Source: Candidatus Desantisiibacteriota bacterium (GTDB lineage: Bacteria; JACRDZ01). Taken from it: a DNA stretch of 8,110 bases. The position numbers and the translations under genes were made by a program. The notes below the pieces were generated by a model. The model saw only the letters and a program-made list of their open reading frames with translations. It ran no database searches and had not been told where the DNA came from. The stretch lies in the NCBI GenBank assembly GCA_016209155.1, contig JACQWU010000282.1, positions 1-8,110 of the forward strand, in the 5' to 3' direction. The number at the start of each line of letters is the position of its first letter. Within the stretch, counting starts at the first letter, position 1. Below are positions 776 to 8,110 of the stretch, piece after piece.

Positions 776-800
776 GGGCAGGTGCAAGAACTGCCCCTAC
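776..800 (-). repeat. 25-bp palindromic repeat, copy 1, between convergent genes
   Basis: Read on the minus strand this begins GTAGGGGCAG and ends CCTGCCC. It matches the copy at 2125-2149 at 23 of 25 positions. On the plus strand GGGCAG (776-781) pairs with CTGCCC (791-796). It begins right after the HEAT gene's stop codon. Its GTAGGGG end supplies the waaA stop codon (CTA at 797-799 on the plus strand, TAG in waaA). It fills the whole intergenic gap and could form a hairpin at both mRNA 3' ends, though neither side has a T-run. The form resembles REP-type elements; the comparison is by eye. Confidence 0.7.
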
Positions 801-2083
801 AATAAAGAATTTATTTCTTCTATCGTACGGGTTGATGCTCCTTTATTTTTTATTACAGCTTCATATGCCGCCTTCCCATCCAGCTTTTTCTTTTCGGAGT
901 TTTCCATATATTCAAGCAGGACTTTTTTTAAAGATAATTTGTCTTTCACACATTTTCCCCCGCCGCTTTCGATTAAAATATCCGCTGCCTCTTTAGTATT
1001 AATGATATAGGGCCCGAAAATAACCGGTTGGGACAAAAGAGCCGGTTCAATTAAATTATGCCCGCCAAAATCCATCAGGGTACCGCCAACGAATGCAACA
1101 TCAGCAATTGCATAATAAGACAACAATTTTCCCATAAAATCAACAATAAAAATATCTGCAATATAATCCTTTGACGTCTGACTCTCTATTTCTGACAGCT
1201 TTTTATATGAAATACCTTTTTGTTCAACTAATCTTACTATTTCGGGAATACGCGCAAGATGTCTTGGAACTAAAATCAATTTACATGTTTTAATATTTTT
1301 TATTTCCGTAAAAACATCTATTAATATTTCTTCCTCCCCAGGCCGGGTGCTTCCCGCAGTCAATAAAAAATATGAAGACTCAAGTCCAAGCTGATGCGTA
1401 ATCATCTGTCTTTCGGCTATAGGGATATCTATTTCAATATCAAATTTTGTCTGTCCGCATACGGCAATTTTTTCTTTATCAGCTCCCAATTTTAAAAAAT
1501 TATTTTTATCCTGATTACTTTGTACACAAAACCTGTCAATGGATAAAAGTATATGGTTGAAAAATTTTTTTAGTAATAAATAATGTTTAACGCTTTTATC
1601 GGTTATACGCCCGTTTATCAAACATATTTTTATATTTTTTTTATGCGCCTCAACTATTATCTCAGGCCAGAGCTCTGTTTCAGCAATTAATAAAATTTTC
1701 GGATTAAAAAAAGAAAGACTTTTTTGGACAATAAAAAAAATATCGAGCGGAGCATAAATAACTAAATTTGAACTACCGTATTCTTGATAGGCTTTATTAT
1801 ACCCTGCTTCTGTGAGGGTTGAAATTACAAAAATATATTCCCGATATTTTTTTTTCAGCTCAGTTATAATTTTCTTTATACTGTTTATCTCTCCCAGTGA
1901 TGCGGCATGAATCCATATAACATTGCGGCCCTTTACCATTTCCTTCCATTTCAAAGGATAATTTCCAAGGCGCATGAAAAGACCGTTGCGATGCTTTTTA
2001 AAAAAGAAAATAACAGGAAGCCCGAGAATAAGAAGGCAGAACCAGATAAAGTTGTAAAAAAAAATAAAAACATTTTTTTTCAT
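797..2083 (-). CDS. waaA: 3-deoxy-D-manno-octulosonic acid (Kdo) transferase
   Basis: WaaA (KdtA, glycosyltransferase family 30) transfers Kdo from CMP-Kdo to the lipid A precursor at the cytoplasmic face of the inner membrane. The 428-residue length is normal for the family. An N-terminal membrane anchor lies at about residues 5-28, followed by the basic KKHRNGLFMRLG stretch. Family motifs follow in order: WIHAASLGE (57-65), whose Glu65 matches the catalytic base; ETELWPEI (135-142); GSTRPGEEEIL (244-254); PRH (273-275); and GGTLMDFGGHNLIEP (333-347), the donor-binding region. The start is supported by AGGA 6 nt upstream (2090-2093). Whether it adds one, two or more Kdo units cannot be read from the sequence. 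It lies downstream of the barrel operon on the same strand but behind a probable terminator, so it is probably transcribed separately. I see no convincing promoter. Its stop codon lies inside a palindromic repeat. Confidence 0.95.
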   Translation of the reverse strand: MKKNVFIFFYNFIWFCLLILGLPVIFFFKKHRNGLFMRLGNYPLKWKEMVKGRNVIWIHAASLGEINSIKKIITELKKKYREYIFVISTLTEAGYNKAYQEYGSSNLVIYAPLDIFFIVQKSLSFFNPKILLIAETELWPEIIVEAHKKNIKICLINGRITDKSVKHYLLLKKFFNHILLSIDRFCVQSNQDKNNFLKLGADKEKIAVCGQTKFDIEIDIPIAERQMITHQLGLESSYFLLTAGSTRPGEEEILIDVFTEIKNIKTCKLILVPRHLARIPEIVRLVEQKGISYKKLSEIESQTSKDYIADIFIVDFMGKLLSYYAIADVAFVGGTLMDFGGHNLIEPALLSQPVIFGPYIINTKEAADILIESGGGKCVKDKLSLKKVLLEYMENSEKKKLDGKAAYEAVIKNKGASTRTIEEINSLL

Positions 2084-2174: not shown

Positions 2175-2208
2175 AAATAAAAAAGAAGGGCAACCGCGAG
2201 GGTTGCCC
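2175..2208 (-). terminator. Rho-independent terminator of the barrel/lipoprotein operon
   Basis: Reading leftward from the barrel gene's stop at 2238, an 8-bp perfect G/C-rich hairpin (GGGCAACC, loop CTCGC, GGTTGCCC; 2188-2208) is followed at once by TTCTTTTTTATTT (2187 down to 2175). This is the intrinsic terminator layout, 30 bp past the stop codon. The hairpin is also repeat copy 3, so a repeat appears to serve as the terminator. Confidence 0.7.
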
Positions 2209-2212
2209 CTAC
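2188..2212 (-). repeat. 25-bp palindromic repeat, copy 3
   Basis: On the minus strand it begins GTAGGGGCA and ends TTGCCC, like the other two copies, but its stem has changed to GGGCAACC/GGTTGCCC with a 5-nt loop. The stem bases changed on both sides, so pairing is kept (8 bp perfect). That points to selection or a copying mechanism acting on the hairpin rather than on the sequence itself. Confidence 0.7.
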
Positions 2213-2237
2213 ATATAAATGTGAAGAAATATGTATA

Positions 2238-3542
2238 TTAAAACACTAATCCTCCGCTTAATGTATAGTAATCAGCAAAATCCGTACCATACATTGAAGC
2301 CTGTAGACTGAAAAACCATAATCCGTTCAGAGTAACACCGTATGTCGGGAATCCCTGATTTTCTCCAACTCGAAGTCCAAGCCCAAGGAAATCCCGCCAT
2401 AAACTGAATTTTGTCTCAAATCCTAAATGTGTTTTATCCGCAAAATCTGTATTATCCCGCGCAGAACCATTTAAATTATCAAGGTCGGCTGCGAGTGTCA
2501 TATCCATGGCTTTTGTATTTTTGTATCCCATAAATTTTAATGGTTTAAAAGCCGCACCTATTCTTAAATTAGTCGGAAATTCTTCATCGATTGTTGTATA
2601 TGTCTTATCTTTGTCATATTCTATTTTGGTTACACCAATATCCTGAACATTGAGTCCCATGTTCAAATAATCATTCAGTTTGATAATAGTTCCAATGTCC
2701 GCTCCTATACCTTTTCCGATAGGCAGATCGTTCATATCCTTAGGAATACCGCTTTTTTGTTTTAATGCCGCTTCGTTTCCAAGATCAGTAAAAGCCAGCG
2801 GATCTTTTTCATCGCTATATTTTGCTCTCAATAGATATTTAAGATTCACACCCCAATTTAAATCCCGATCTGTCATATCCCCTTCGCTTAAGAATTTTGG
2901 AACAGGGATAATTTCTTTAATTGTAAAGGCTTTACTTATTGTCGGGACAACGTCTACTGAAGCAGTGTATATAACCTTGTTATCTATCCAGCTGAATGCC
3001 TGCGGGAAAAACAGGGATTGATTCATAGCACTTTTAACTATATAGGTACGCAATGTTGAACTCTGAGATACACCAAAAGCAATTTTCCACGGACGGATGG
3101 AAAATCCTGCATAGAATTCATTCCCGCCTTCAATTATTTTGCTTGAAATTTTATCAACCTGGGTAAGCATTTTTTGTGTGACGGGATCTGTCATATTTAT
3201 ACCGCCGGAGTTAGTTGTTTTTTGAAACTCGTCCATAACATCTATTGTATCCTGAATAAGTCCTTTGCCTTGAGCAAAATTCATCAGTTCATCCCCGACA
3301 TCTTTGGTTATTTTTGGGACGAGTTCTATTGTTAAATCCCATGAGTTCTGCGTGGCAAGGCTTGCCGGATTCCAGTTACGGCTGTTATAATCATCTCCGA
3401 CAGCTGTAAATGCGCCTCCCATAGCCATCGGCCGCACACCACGGTAAAAAACATTGTCTGCCGCGAAAATGATTATTGGAAATAATATAATTGCAATTAA
3501 AATTATATTTGACAGCCGGAATATTCTGTATCTTTGTTTCAT
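2238..3542 (-). CDS. PorV/TraF_2-like outer-membrane beta-barrel protein
   Basis: This 434-residue protein has a Sec signal peptide (basic start, hydrophobic residues 11-26, likely cut after IIIFA at 27). Near its mature N-terminus is RPMAMGGAFTAVGDDYNSRN (37-56) followed by WNPASLA, the hallmark of the FadL-fold PorV/UPF0164/TraF_2 group of outer-membrane proteins. The rest is rich in alternating polar/hydrophobic strands with aromatic girdle residues. It ends in an amphipathic strand with terminal Phe (YTLSGGLVF), the usual signal for the BAM machinery. The insert at about residues 80-140 looks helical and could form a plug or periplasmic part. Database names such as conjugal transfer protein TraF should not be read as conjugation here, since no transfer genes are nearby. 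AGGAGG (3548-3553) lies 5 nt before the start. It is the last gene of a three-gene operon with two lipoproteins, 41 bp after the second. Its cargo or partner is unknown. Confidence 0.8.
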   Translation of the reverse strand: MKQRYRIFRLSNIILIAIILFPIIIFAADNVFYRGVRPMAMGGAFTAVGDDYNSRNWNPASLATQNSWDLTIELVPKITKDVGDELMNFAQGKGLIQDTIDVMDEFQKTTNSGGINMTDPVTQKMLTQVDKISSKIIEGGNEFYAGFSIRPWKIAFGVSQSSTLRTYIVKSAMNQSLFFPQAFSWIDNKVIYTASVDVVPTISKAFTIKEIIPVPKFLSEGDMTDRDLNWGVNLKYLLRAKYSDEKDPLAFTDLGNEAALKQKSGIPKDMNDLPIGKGIGADIGTIIKLNDYLNMGLNVQDIGVTKIEYDKDKTYTTIDEEFPTNLRIGAAFKPLKFMGYKNTKAMDMTLAADLDNLNGSARDNTDFADKTHLGFETKFSLWRDFLGLGLRVGENQGFPTYGVTLNGLWFFSLQASMYGTDFADYYTLSGGLVF

Positions 3543-3583
3543 AATAACCTCCTATATATTAAATTTCTAATTCCAAATTTTAA

Positions 3584-4501
3584 TTAATAATCATTAGCCG
3601 CTCTTACAAATCCAAAACCCTGTGCCTGATTATAAAGACTTGTATCAAATTTATTAATATAGCCTTTAACAGTTTCAACCCATTTTTCTACTCCGCTAAA
3701 AGCCTTTTCTCCAAACTCAACTGAACGTATATAATGATATAATGCATTATTGTATTTTTTACCTGGGATATTATGTTGAGGATCATTTACATTCGGGAAT
3801 CTGCTAAGTAAAGTTGAACTTACTCCCAGATTTATAGAATCCCAACTGGTACCAAGAGGTGCGCCTGCATGTATTTCATAACTTCTTCCTGTTAAAAGAT
3901 AAAGAGCATTAATAATCGCCTGGCAGGACTGTTTAGCGCCATTATATCCCTGACCTCCGGCTAAATCACGAACATCAGTGAGCCCATCCCCGTTTTTATC
4001 ACCCATGGATACTGTATAGATACCATTACTCCAATTAATAACATTTACTCCAAGCGGAGAATGAACAAGTCTTGATGCGGCGTTTACAGTAAAAATATAA
4101 CCGACTATAAAGTGAAGATAAGCTCCCTGTCCATTGCCTGCTGTATATTCTGCTTTTCGGGCGGCATTAACAAGATTGATTGCATTGTTAATCTTTTCAA
4201 TCGCATCTTCATATGTTGTGTTGGATGTTGTGTCATTTGAAAGTGTAGCCGGTGAAGGGAGTAAACTAGAAGCTGCACCCGAATCAAAACTATCCAGATT
4301 CCCTCCTGTCTTAAAAAAGGGAGGCATAACTTGAGAGTCTTTCAGTAAATTATATGCTCCATCAAGAGATTTGTTTGCATCAGCCTCTCCGGCATCCTGA
4401 GTTTTTGATTTTCTTCCTCCTCCGCATGCCAGTGCAGTCATGCCAATAAGTGTAATAACCAGAACTAATAACAAAAATAAATTAAAACGATTTTTATTCA
4501 T
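3584..4501 (-). CDS. Predicted lipoprotein with EF-hand-like loop (paralogue A)
   Basis: I do not recognise the family. The 305-residue product begins with a lipoprotein signal (MNKNRFNLF, hydrophobic core, then TALAC with the lipid-bearing Cys at 26) and a GGG linker, so it should be anchored in the inner or outer membrane. The mature part looks mainly helical: DGAYNLL (47-53), a long helix pair at about 98-145 with NAARKAEYTAG, then a polar loop, then YHYIRSVEFGEKA (255-267). DKNGDGLTDVRD (168-179) fits a 12-residue EF-hand/dockerin calcium loop, with acidic or amide side chains at positions 1, 3, 5, 9 and 12 and Gly at 6. One Cys remains in the mature protein (C193). It is roughly 75-80% identical, by eye, to the gene just upstream and lies 40 bp after it. 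AGGAGG (4510-4515) is 8 nt before the start. A scaffold or ligand-binding partner of the downstream barrel is a reasonable guess only. Confidence 0.8.
   Translation of the reverse strand: MNKNRFNLFLLLVLVITLIGMTALACGGGRKSKTQDAGEADANKSLDGAYNLLKDSQVMPPFFKTGGNLDSFDSGAASSLLPSPATLSNDTTSNTTYEDAIEKINNAINLVNAARKAEYTAGNGQGAYLHFIVGYIFTVNAASRLVHSPLGVNVINWSNGIYTVSMGDKNGDGLTDVRDLAGGQGYNGAKQSCQAIINALYLLTGRSYEIHAGAPLGTSWDSINLGVSSTLLSRFPNVNDPQHNIPGKKYNNALYHYIRSVEFGEKAFSGVEKWVETVKGYINKFDTSLYNQAQGFGFVRAANDY
3965..4000 (-). other. EF-hand/dockerin-like calcium-binding loop in paralogue A
   Basis: Encodes DKNGDGLTDVRD, residues 168-179. Asp1, Asn3, Asp5, Gly6, Asp9 and Asp12 match the canonical DxNxDG loop. Only one such loop is visible, so this is neither a paired EF-hand nor a full dockerin module. 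Confidence 0.6.
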
Positions 4502-4541
4502 AACTTTATCCTCCTTATGTTAAATTTAAAATCTCAAATTA

Positions 4542-5477
4542 CTAATCGTTATCTGATCTTACAAATCCAAAAGCACTTGCCTGATTATAAAGGCTTGTAT
4601 CAAATTTATTGATATATCCCTGGACTTTCTGAACTCCTTTTTCTATTCCGGTTAATGCTTTTTCTCCAAACTCAATTGAGCGTATATAATGATATAATGC
4701 ATTATTGGTTTTTTTACCGGGGATATTATGTGCAGGGTCGTTTATATTTGGAAATAAGCTTAGTAAACGGGAACTTACTCCCAGATTTGTGGAATCCCAG
4801 TCTGTACCTTTTGGACCTTCAGCATGTATTTCATAACGTCTTCCTGTTAAAAGGTAAAGAGCATCAATAATCGCCTGACAGGATTTTACAGCTTCAACAT
4901 ATCCTTTTCCGCCGGATAAATCACCAAGATTAGTCTTCCCGTCATGGTTTTTATCACCTAAAGATATCGTATAAATACCATTACTATAATGAATAACTTC
5001 CTTCCCAAGCGGGGAATGCACAAGTCTTGATGCGGCATTTACAGTAAAAATATAACCGACTATGAAATGAAGATACGCTCCCTGTCCATAACCTGCCGTA
5101 TATTCTGCTTTACGAGCGGCATTAACAAGATTGATTGCATTATTAATTTTTGTAATCGCTTCTTCATAAGACTCGGTTTTCGGCTCACCGGCAGCTGTTG
5201 TGTCGCTTGATAATTTATCCGGTGACGGCAGTAAACTTGCAGCCGCACCCGAATCAAAACTATCCAGATTTCCATTCTTCATAAAAGGCGGCATGATTTG
5301 AGTTGCGTTAAGTAAATTATATGCTCCATCAAGATCTGCGGTTGCTTGTGACGGCATAGTATCCTGTGTTTGGTTTTCACGTTTTTTCGATCCTCCTCCG
5401 CATGCCAGTGCAGTCATCCCGATAAGAGTAATAATCAAAACTAATAATAAAAATAAATTAAAACGGTTTTCTTTCAT
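4542..5477 (-). CDS. Predicted lipoprotein with EF-hand-like loop (paralogue B)
   Basis: First gene of the leftward operon, 311 residues, family not recognised. Its signal peptide (MKENRFNLF, hydrophobic core, TALAC, Cys26) is almost the same as that of paralogue A. The linker after it is longer and more polar (SKKRENQTQDTMPSQAT). The block NAINLVNAARKAEYTAG (114-130) and the following 28 residues are nearly unchanged between the two. The calcium-type loop is DKNHDGKTNLGD (175-186). Differences cluster in the post-signal linker (31-48), a short insertion (AAGEPKTE, about 95-102) and surface loops. The mature Cys is kept (C200). AGGAGG (5486-5491) lies 8 nt from the ATG, and a near-consensus promoter lies upstream. 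A TPR-like helical lipoprotein is possible, but I cannot assign a function. Confidence 0.8.
   Translation of the reverse strand: MKENRFNLFLLLVLIITLIGMTALACGGGSKKRENQTQDTMPSQATADLDGAYNLLNATQIMPPFMKNGNLDSFDSGAAASLLPSPDKLSSDTTAAGEPKTESYEEAITKINNAINLVNAARKAEYTAGYGQGAYLHFIVGYIFTVNAASRLVHSPLGKEVIHYSNGIYTISLGDKNHDGKTNLGDLSGGKGYVEAVKSCQAIIDALYLLTGRRYEIHAEGPKGTDWDSTNLGVSSRLLSLFPNINDPAHNIPGKKTNNALYHYIRSIEFGEKALTGIEKGVQKVQGYINKFDTSLYNQASAFGFVRSDND
4920..4955 (-). other. EF-hand/dockerin-like calcium-binding loop in paralogue B
   Basis: Encodes DKNHDGKTNLGD, residues 175-186. Positions 1 (D), 3 (N), 5 (D), 6 (G), 9 (N) and 12 (D) are kept although neighbouring residues differ from paralogue A. This is the pattern expected if metal binding is under selection. 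Confidence 0.6.
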
Positions 5478-5530
5478 AACTTCATCCTCCTTTTAAACTT
5501 ATTTGAAATTAATGTATAATATAATATTAC

Positions 5531-5559
5531 ATTATAGTACTATTAATCAAAAACGTCAA
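5531..5559 (-). promoter_or_regulatory. Sigma70-type promoter of the lipoprotein/barrel operon
   Basis: On the minus strand, TTGACG (5559-5554) and TATAAT (5536-5531) are separated by 17 bp, which is one mismatch from consensus with ideal spacing. Transcription would start near 5524, giving a leader of about 45 nt before the paralogue B start at 5477. This is a housekeeping-type promoter, so constitutive and possibly strong expression is likely. I see no clear operator palindrome over it. Confidence 0.7.
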
Positions 5560-5644
5560 ATGCACTTAAAAAATAAAGAAAATTAAAGAAATTACGGATG
5601 CAGAGCGATATAGTAATGAAGAAACATAAAAAGAGGAAGTATAA

Positions 5645-6838: not shown

Positions 6839-6855
6839 AGAACCTCGCAGCAAGT

Positions 6856-6977
6856 CTCGATGTATCTAAAAATAATAATAATTAGATTGCTTCGAAAGCC
6901 TACGCTCCTTGCAATGACGTCATTGCGAACTGAAAGCGAAGCAATCTAAATATGTAACCTCAACGTATAACATCGAG
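6856..6977. repeat. Nested palindromic repeat element (MITE/REP-like)
   Basis: The outer arms CTCGATGT (6856-6863) and ACATCGAG (6970-6977) enclose a 68-bp element with perfect 13-bp ends, TTAGATTGCTTCG (6882-6894) and its complement (6937-6949). At its centre is the perfect 16-bp palindrome GCAATGACGTCATTGC (6911-6926). The arms between ends and centre are partly complementary, with six extra bases on the left. AGATTGCTTCG with CATTGCGA is a pattern I have seen in intergenic repeats of many bacterial genomes, but I cannot search for copies. There are no coding frames inside, so any movement would depend on a transposase elsewhere. Confidence 0.7.
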
Positions 6978-7180
6978 GAATAGTTGGATCTAAAAACTGA
7001 ATCGCATCAAGTGCGGAATGACACCTTTTTGGACAGCCGCCTCCGTTTAAAATAATTAAATTTCAGCTTAGTTGTAAAATATGTGCCCATCCTGATTTTT
7101 AATAAATATTACATAATCTATAATTAAAATGAAACTATTTTTTATTAAATCTTTATATTATGAAAGAGTATATTATTTAA

Positions 7181-7186: not shown

Positions 7187-7195
7187 ATAATGATA

Positions 7196-8110
7196 ATGAT
7201 AAAAAAAAGTCATGTTTTTGCTTATTGTCTATTGTTTATAAGCGTGATGCAGACCTGTATTTATGCTAATATTTTAGAATATAGTATAAAAAAAGAAACA
7301 AAATTAATAAAAAAGGACAGCCCTTATATTATTGAAAAAGATTTAGTGATAGAAAAAGGTGCAACCCTGATTATTGAACCTGGAGTAATAATAAAATTTG
7401 CCCCAAATATTGGGAATACAAAAAATAAGATAATTGTGCATGGTACTCTCATAGCAAAAGGAGAAGAAAATAACCGTATTTATTTTACATCCGAATACCA
7501 AAAACCGGGAGTTTGGGGAGGAATAATTTTTATAAAGAACGATAACAGAGAAAAAAGTATTATTGAATATTGTCAGATTGAATTTTCCACCTGCGGAGTG
7601 GGCGCATTTAGCTCATCCCCAGACATCGTAAATAATGTATTCTATTCAAATGAAGTAGCAATAGTATGTGAAGATTATTCATCGCCAAAAATTTTTAAAA
7701 ATAATTTATTGCAAAATGGTACTTTTAGAAGTGTAGCAGGAGGAATTTCCTGTGCTTTTTACTCCAGTCCGGAAATACGTGATAATTCCATTGAAAAAAC
7801 TCTTGGAGATGGCATAAGAACGGCTGTTTTTTCTAATCCTGTGATTTCTAACAATTTTATCGGATATGGTGCCGGCAGAGGAATAACAGTTTGCTCAAAA
7901 TCTTCTCCTAAGATTATTAACAATAATCTATTCCGTAATGGTTGCAGCTGCGGAATTGTTATATATGAAGCATCTCCTATTATTACAGGAAATAAAATAC
8001 ATGAAAACAGAGCTCCCGGAATTTCAGCATTAATTAAATCTACTCCAATTATCAGTAATAATTATTTTACTAAAAATGGTATCGGGTTAAAAAGTATTTA
8101 TTCTTCTCCA
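7196..8110 (+). CDS. Secreted right-handed beta-helix repeat protein (3' end missing)
   Basis: The frame is open from 7196 to the window end (305 codons) with no stop, so only the N-terminal part is present. A signal peptide (MIKKSHVF, hydrophobic to about residue 24, likely cut after IYA) indicates export. DLVIEKGATLIIEPGVIIKF (49-68) then VHGTLIAKGEE is the typical opening of NosD/PbH1-type beta-helices. From residue 139 there is a repeat of about 23 residues built on (S/A)xP-x-I-x-x-N-x-(I/F/L). The Pro lies at 142, 164, 192, 215, 238, 261, 284 and 305, giving spacings of 22, 28, 23, 23, 23, 23 and 21. Each repeat should be one coil of a parallel beta-helix with an Asn ladder. Such folds occur in polysaccharide-active enzymes, adhesins and surface proteins. 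No catalytic site is visible so far. Cysteines at 133, 158, 186, 233, 250 and 252 are unusually frequent for a secreted repeat protein. Confidence 0.85.
   Translation, partial: MIKKSHVFAYCLLFISVMQTCIYANILEYSIKKETKLIKKDSPYIIEKDLVIEKGATLIIEPGVIIKFAPNIGNTKNKIIVHGTLIAKGEENNRIYFTSEYQKPGVWGGIIFIKNDNREKSIIEYCQIEFSTCGVGAFSSSPDIVNNVFYSNEVAIVCEDYSSPKIFKNNLLQNGTFRSVAGGISCAFYSSPEIRDNSIEKTLGDGIRTAVFSNPVISNNFIGYGAGRGITVCSKSSPKIINNNLFRNGCSCGIVIYEASPIITGNKIHENRAPGISALIKSTPIISNNYFTKNGIGLKSIYSSP

Follow-up and report, generated by a model that had tools for sequence, protein, structure and literature searches.

Whether a lipoprotein and an outer-membrane barrel encoded side by side belong to a single system is the question raised by contig JACQWU010000282.1 of a Candidatus Desantisiibacteriota genome (assembly GCA_016209155.1, here G000; 3.08 Mb, 352 contigs, 79% complete). 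The whole contig, 8,110 bp in length, was analyzed and is called the window below. On its minus strand it encodes lipoprotein A (4542-5477; 311 amino acids), lipoprotein B (3584-4501; 305 amino acids), and an outer-membrane barrel of the PorV/FadL superfamily (2238-3542; 434 amino acids). The original prediction had described these genes as a three-gene operon of two sister lipoproteins and a barrel and had drawn the functional link between them from gene order and shared transcription alone. All three minus-strand open reading frames (ORFs) were confirmed, with gaps of 40 bp between A and B and 41 bp between B and the barrel and with a strong Shine-Dalgarno sequence at each start (AAAAGGAGG, AAGGAGG, and AGGAGG). 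The linkage of the genes was borne out as well, the pairing of lipoprotein and barrel genes being found to hold across phyla.

Lipoprotein profile searches covered two overlapping sets of genomes, 386 around the window's genome and 386 around genome G149. A convincing window-type lipoprotein was present in five genomes, three of them (G000, G001, and G003) from the window's phylum, which is represented by four genomes in the searched set, and two (G286 and G149) from a second phylum, of which 19 genomes were searched. Rather than lying mostly away from the barrel, the lipoprotein gene was directly upstream of a barrel gene in all five. The fourth genome of the window's phylum (G002) had neither the lipoprotein nor the window barrel type. 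When the barrel alone was searched for in the second phylum, two more full-length relatives were recovered (G394 and G396), and directly upstream of each was a lipoprotein of the tetratricopeptide repeat (TPR) type seen in Elusimicrobiota. A pattern search of named genome contigs with the barrel alignment retained 80 loci, and a lipoprotein gene stood immediately upstream of 39 of 64 related barrels and was missing from 25, proportions that are not a census, the loci having been picked by barrel motifs. The upstream lipoproteins, of 240 to 350 amino acids, came from Endomicrobia, Elusimicrobia, candidate division FCPU426, and Firestonebacteria and from records titled Deltaproteobacteria, Desulfobacterales, Syntrophaceae, Oligoflexia/Bdellovibrionales (Bdellovibrionota), and Nitrospirota. 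Barrels of Margulisbacteria/Saganbacteria had no lipoprotein in the gene before them. A control count of PorV paralogues yielded eight usable loci, at which the single "lipoprotein" was most likely a purine phosphoribosyltransferase, and this count was not used. A literature search found no paper on this lipoprotein-barrel gene pair.

The 64 barrels were placed on a maximum-likelihood tree, a quick tree with several weak deep forks. Presence or absence of the upstream lipoprotein required 4 changes on this tree compared to a shuffled mean of 19.9, and none of 500 shuffles was as low; the lipoprotein types required 6 changes for five states compared to a shuffled mean of 31.9. The five window-type barrels formed one starred clade, and true PorV was placed apart. 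Of all the observations, this co-distribution of lipoprotein and barrel clade argues most strongly for a joint function of the two proteins.

Lipoproteins A and B are tandem paralogues with 74% protein identity (E = 3e-160) and 80% DNA identity. Their divergence was 0.16 at nonsynonymous sites (dN) and 0.53 at synonymous sites (dS), a ratio of about 0.31; therefore, both copies are under purifying selection and both are maintained. Both carry a signal peptide that closes with a lipobox (TALAC; in A, TALAC-GGGSKKRE). Scans of Pfam and NCBIfam gave no family above chance for either protein, in keeping with the earlier statement that they could not be placed, and no match to a well-known unrelated family emerged. 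The TatT family (PF16811) matched none of the lipoproteins scanned, and no relative of A or B turned up in a PDB sequence search. Pattern searches with the single sequence of lipoprotein A found no relative in genome or viral contigs, nor did the lipoprotein alignment find one in viral contigs. A weak profile match in genome G093 was rejected as a cysteine-rich surface protein resembling epidermal growth factor. Weak profile matches also occurred in genomes G230 and G321, along with some short ones, and these do not count among the convincing set. Among the genomes with the pair, only G000 has a second lipoprotein gene, which makes the duplication a local one. The basic unit is thus one lipoprotein and one barrel; the pairing within the predicted three-gene unit is real, but its second lipoprotein is a tandem duplicate limited to G000.

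The fold of the lipoprotein was approached through its counterparts. The Endomicrobium partner lipoprotein gave a confident TPR-like model from 16 sequences (predicted local distance difference test [pLDDT], 86.5; predicted template modeling score [pTM], 0.76), consisting of an N-terminal TPR hairpin, further helices, a hairpin at residues 181 to 195, and two long helices. Its best structural neighbors were TPR domains at a Z score of about 10, which, for helical repeats, reflects a widespread arrangement and not kinship, and Foldseek returned TPR and 14-3-3 domains at E values of 3e-3 or worse. TPR matches were found in the partner lipoproteins of Elusimicrobiota and FCPU426, and the TPR part shows the Elusimicrobiota type to be related to the Deltaproteobacterial one (E = 3.8e-12). 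Conservation in lipoproteins of the Elusimicrobiota/FCPU426 type peaks in the 12 residues past the lipidated cysteine (C..N[IL]F.), at a level that none of 201 other blocks reaches, as would be expected for a docking tether. The low-confidence model of lipoprotein A places a beta hairpin (162-171) between two helices (132-153 and 193-211), the same helix-hairpin-helix order as in the Endomicrobium partner model, and profile alignment paired window-type residues 137 to 172 with the Endomicrobium partner family at the helix and hairpin. With signal peptides kept, the two profiles matched at an E value of 1.4e-3 with four sequences and 1.9e-5 with six. With signal peptides removed, the score was 27.6, whereas 99 column shuffles reached at most 17.3 and the reversed profile gave 18.5; after two sequences were added, the alignment kept the same register and scored 22.8 against a shuffle maximum of 18.9. 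From these comparisons, the window-type lipoprotein is probably homologous to the TPR lipoproteins, although this is not proven. PDB fold searches with the window model were not informative (best Z of 6.3, under the chance level for helical models).

The barrel had been labeled PorV/TraF_2-like and of the FadL/PorV type. The latter assignment is supported by a match of the window barrel to the NCBIfam family PorV_fam (NF033709; E = 3e-14, 53.3 bits, under the 90-bit cutoff). The barrel has an N-terminal hatch motif, RPMAMGGAFTAVGDDYNSRNWNPA, and hatch-like N-terminal motifs are conserved among the barrels. The window barrel scored 27 bits against the T9SS_OM_PorV equivalog (cutoff, 250) and matched neither PF03349 (Toluene_X/FadL) at an E value of ≤1, TraF_2 (PF13729) at 1e-3, nor the NCBIfam BamG model (NF053685). 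Family scans of 26 barrels taken from lipoprotein pairs matched PorV_fam in 26, TraF_2 in 19, PF03349 in 4 (E ≤ 1e-3), and UPF0164 in 3. Thus, of the earlier label, the kinship to PorV stands, and the TraF_2 part applies to most relatives but not to the window protein itself. A profile of five close barrels had a single PDB match at an E value of ≤1, the Flavobacterium johnsoniae PorV (6h3i_F; E = 1e-3 over 41 positions); the profile of all 26 gave a chance match only. These similarities place the window barrel, as a divergent member, in the PorV branch (PorV/PorQ part) of the FadL superfamily. In genomes G386 to G402, which belong to the phylum of G286, up to 39 barrel-profile matches per genome were counted at an E value of ≤0.001, so that PorV-type barrels are greatly expanded there.

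We consider it about an evenly balanced call, falling slightly short, that an ancient TPR-type lipoprotein and a PorV-type barrel make up a hitherto undescribed two-component outer-membrane system in several phyla, distinct from the type IX secretion system (T9SS), the barrel assembly machinery (BAM), and simple FadL uptake, that moves or anchors its own ligand or cargo. More tentatively, we propose that the window operon encodes a dedicated barrel-lipoprotein complex in which the lipoprotein, most likely periplasmic, handles a hydrophobic or envelope ligand. The barrel would be seated in the outer membrane, and the cognate helical, probably TPR-like lipoprotein, tethered via its lipidated N terminus, would dock on it. 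Where the barrel opens to the periplasm, the lipoprotein could bind and hand on, or gate, a hydrophobic or envelope-derived ligand, which would move via the side opening of the barrel as in FadL barrels, with the lipoprotein acting in the manner of TPR lipoproteins of the TatT/BstC kind. Its duplication in G000 could yield two specificities on one barrel. Physical contact, the membrane side, the ligand, and the direction of transfer are what we infer here.

The comparison with TatT/BstC (PF16811; Tp0956) rests on a shared helical, TPR-like character, a tie to the outer membrane or periplasm, and a link to hydrophobic ligands: BstC binds sterol, and hydrophobic ligands are the known or probable binding partners of BstC and Tp0956 (PMC10942540). 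TatT and BstC, unlike the lipoproteins here, accompany tripartite ATP-independent periplasmic or sterol systems rather than a PorV-type barrel, and the lipoproteins here lack a PF16811 match. The window barrel resembles FadL/OmpP1/TodX (PF03349) in its superfamily and in the side-opening barrel, via the kinship of PorV and BamG to FadL, and differs in having no PF03349 match of its own; canonical FadL is not known to have a cognate lipoprotein gene.

Several observations count against a TPR-type partner complex in the window. Adjacency demonstrates linkage rather than contact, and a second, longer clade of Endomicrobia barrels has no adjoining lipoprotein. The AlphaFold2 model of lipoprotein A, built from four sequences, is mainly helical and poor (pLDDT, 50; pTM, 0.56), and a TPR motif is not detectable in the window lipoproteins. 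The similarity to the TPR lipoproteins (27.6 observed, 18.5 for the reversed decoy) spans only about 37 columns, and the window-type profile scored no higher than shuffles against the Deltaproteobacterial type. Although C-[SA]-K-R-E follows the lipidation site in four of six window-type members, conservation of the tether is average in this type, no higher than in the rest of the protein.

The main rival to a periplasmic ligand-handling complex is surface anchoring or shuttling, with the lipoprotein carried or held outside the cell by the barrel for display or adhesion. PorV is a shuttle that carries T9SS cargo and holds secreted proteins at the cell surface (PMC5562754), and relatives within the phylum carry SprA-like and PorV genes, although the window's own assembly, which is 79% complete, yielded no SprA. 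The Bacteroidota BAM offers a second precedent, in which BamH, a lipoprotein, is held on the exterior by the FadL-family barrel BamG (PMC12611786, PMC12578637); BamG binds BamH by extracellular loops, and Bacteroides thetaiotaomicron has a putative BamG2-BamH2 operon (PMC12578637). As in that case, a FadL-family barrel appears devoted to one lipoprotein here, and a single conserved lipoprotein per barrel suits a dedicated cargo. However, BamH has a carbohydrate-binding-type (chondroitin-sulfate-binding-type) fold (PMC12611786), whereas the window lipoprotein is predicted, at low confidence, to be helical and its confidently modeled counterpart is TPR-like. The pair here also differs from BamG-BamH in that its barrel in the window is not matched by the BamG model of NCBIfam and in that the F. 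johnsoniae bamG and bamH genes have unlinked locus tags (Fjoh_1412 and Fjoh_0823). As to anchoring itself, no surface-export signal was identified, and the groups that host the pair are not known for surface lipoproteins as a hallmark. Surface anchoring is regarded as unlikely, at roughly one chance in four. Less probable still is an accessory role in outer-membrane assembly, in a machine that is BAM-like or serves lipopolysaccharide or lipid insertion, with a BamD-like lipoprotein and a BamG-like barrel. Bacteroidota BAM does include a FadL-family barrel, and the TPR part of the Elusimicrobiota-type lipoprotein weakly resembles the BamD profile (E = 5e-5, under the cutoff), but this resemblance is that of a generic TPR, the BamG model matched only 1 of the 26 pair barrels (E = 3.7e-5), the window barrel not among them, and no BamA was seen near the pairs. 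Envelope genes do lie near a few loci (LptF/LptG three times, two of them in one genome, ATP-binding cassette [ABC] exporter and heptosyltransferase genes, and, in the window, a 3-deoxy-D-manno-octulosonic acid [Kdo] transferase), but neighboring genes vary widely, and with no control set for this count no enrichment is claimed.

A component of a variant T9SS, with the barrel a divergent PorV of the phylum's own system and the lipoproteins accessory or cargo, would fit the PorV_fam similarity, the solved PorV as sole PDB match of the five-barrel profile, and the presence of SprA-like ORFs in three relatives. With PorV (NF033709/NF033710, PDB 6h3i) the barrel shares the superfamily and the N-terminal R-P-M-x-M-G-G/NPA region. 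ORFs resembling SprA, of about 1,530 to 1,570 amino acids, occur in G001, G003, and G002 (loci L119, 4158-8828; L120; and L121, respectively); they score well below the SprA cutoff, are shorter than the SprA model (2,319 positions), and may represent a possible T9SS-like translocon. The earlier observation that no type IX genes are in view is true of the window, but three relatives in its phylum combine SprA-like ORFs with a separate PorV. Because those relatives carry separate, bona fide PorV genes above the family cutoff, the barrel of the window must be another paralogue. Its scores (53 of 90 and 27 of 250 bits), its own lipoprotein gene, and the position of true PorV on the tree also set it apart from PorV. 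Since G002, furthermore, has both a SprA-like ORF and PorV yet lacks the pair, T9SS membership is very unlikely. It could also be that the genes are adjacent by descent alone, an ancient operon kept by chance or by co-regulation whose proteins act independently, given that the evidence is gene order and therefore indirect. Against this, linkage has been kept across several phyla at 22 to 30% partner identity while other neighbors changed, and the lipoprotein type tracks the barrel clade. We consider descent alone improbable.

The limits of the transcription unit, which had been described as well delimited, are less firm than its content. A promoter-like site (TTGACG-17-TATAAT; 5531-5559, minus strand) lies upstream of lipoprotein A and matches 11 of 12 consensus bases, but such sites number 41 in the window compared to 36 ± 6 in shuffles, about the level of chance. 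Because they are equally common in shuffled sequence, this match, taken alone, proves little about a transcription start. A terminator-like hairpin with a T-run (2186-2210, minus strand) is also present and folds better than shuffles (z = -3.6), but it is one copy of a repeated intergenic palindrome of the AGGGGCAGGT..GCCTGCCCTT type, found at 774-801, 2122-2151, and 2186-2213; a 25-base pattern from one copy had two matches in the window and none in shuffles. The end of the unit is therefore less certain than first stated, and the palindromes may be a dispersed repeat doubling as a terminator.

Elsewhere in the window, a near-perfect palindrome with 22-nucleotide arms (AGCGCTATTAAAACCCTGC...GCAGGGTATTAATAGCGCT) lies at 75-120, ahead of a HEAT-repeat gene. 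A noncoding stretch at 6841-7031, of the GATTGCTTCG...ATTGCGAACTGAAAGCGAAGCAATC inverted-repeat type, resembles a dispersed element. A NosD-like protein of the right-handed beta-helix type that bears a signal peptide is encoded at 7190-8110 and is truncated by the contig end. Envelope-lipid genes, namely LptF/LptG-like permeases, ABC exporters, and, in the window, the Kdo transferase, adjoin pairs at L010 9909-11686, L034 6402-6770, L067 3438-5243, L073 6550-8316, and window positions 797-2083.

Outer-membrane biology beyond Pseudomonadota and Bacteroidota is mostly unexplored. PorV and BamG are both FadL-type barrels that were recruited as partners of other proteins. If the proposal made here is true, the pairing, which extends from Elusimicrobiota to Deltaproteobacteria and involves an unnamed lipoprotein family, would add a third case of this kind; the pair provides concrete genes for study in any tractable host that carries both.

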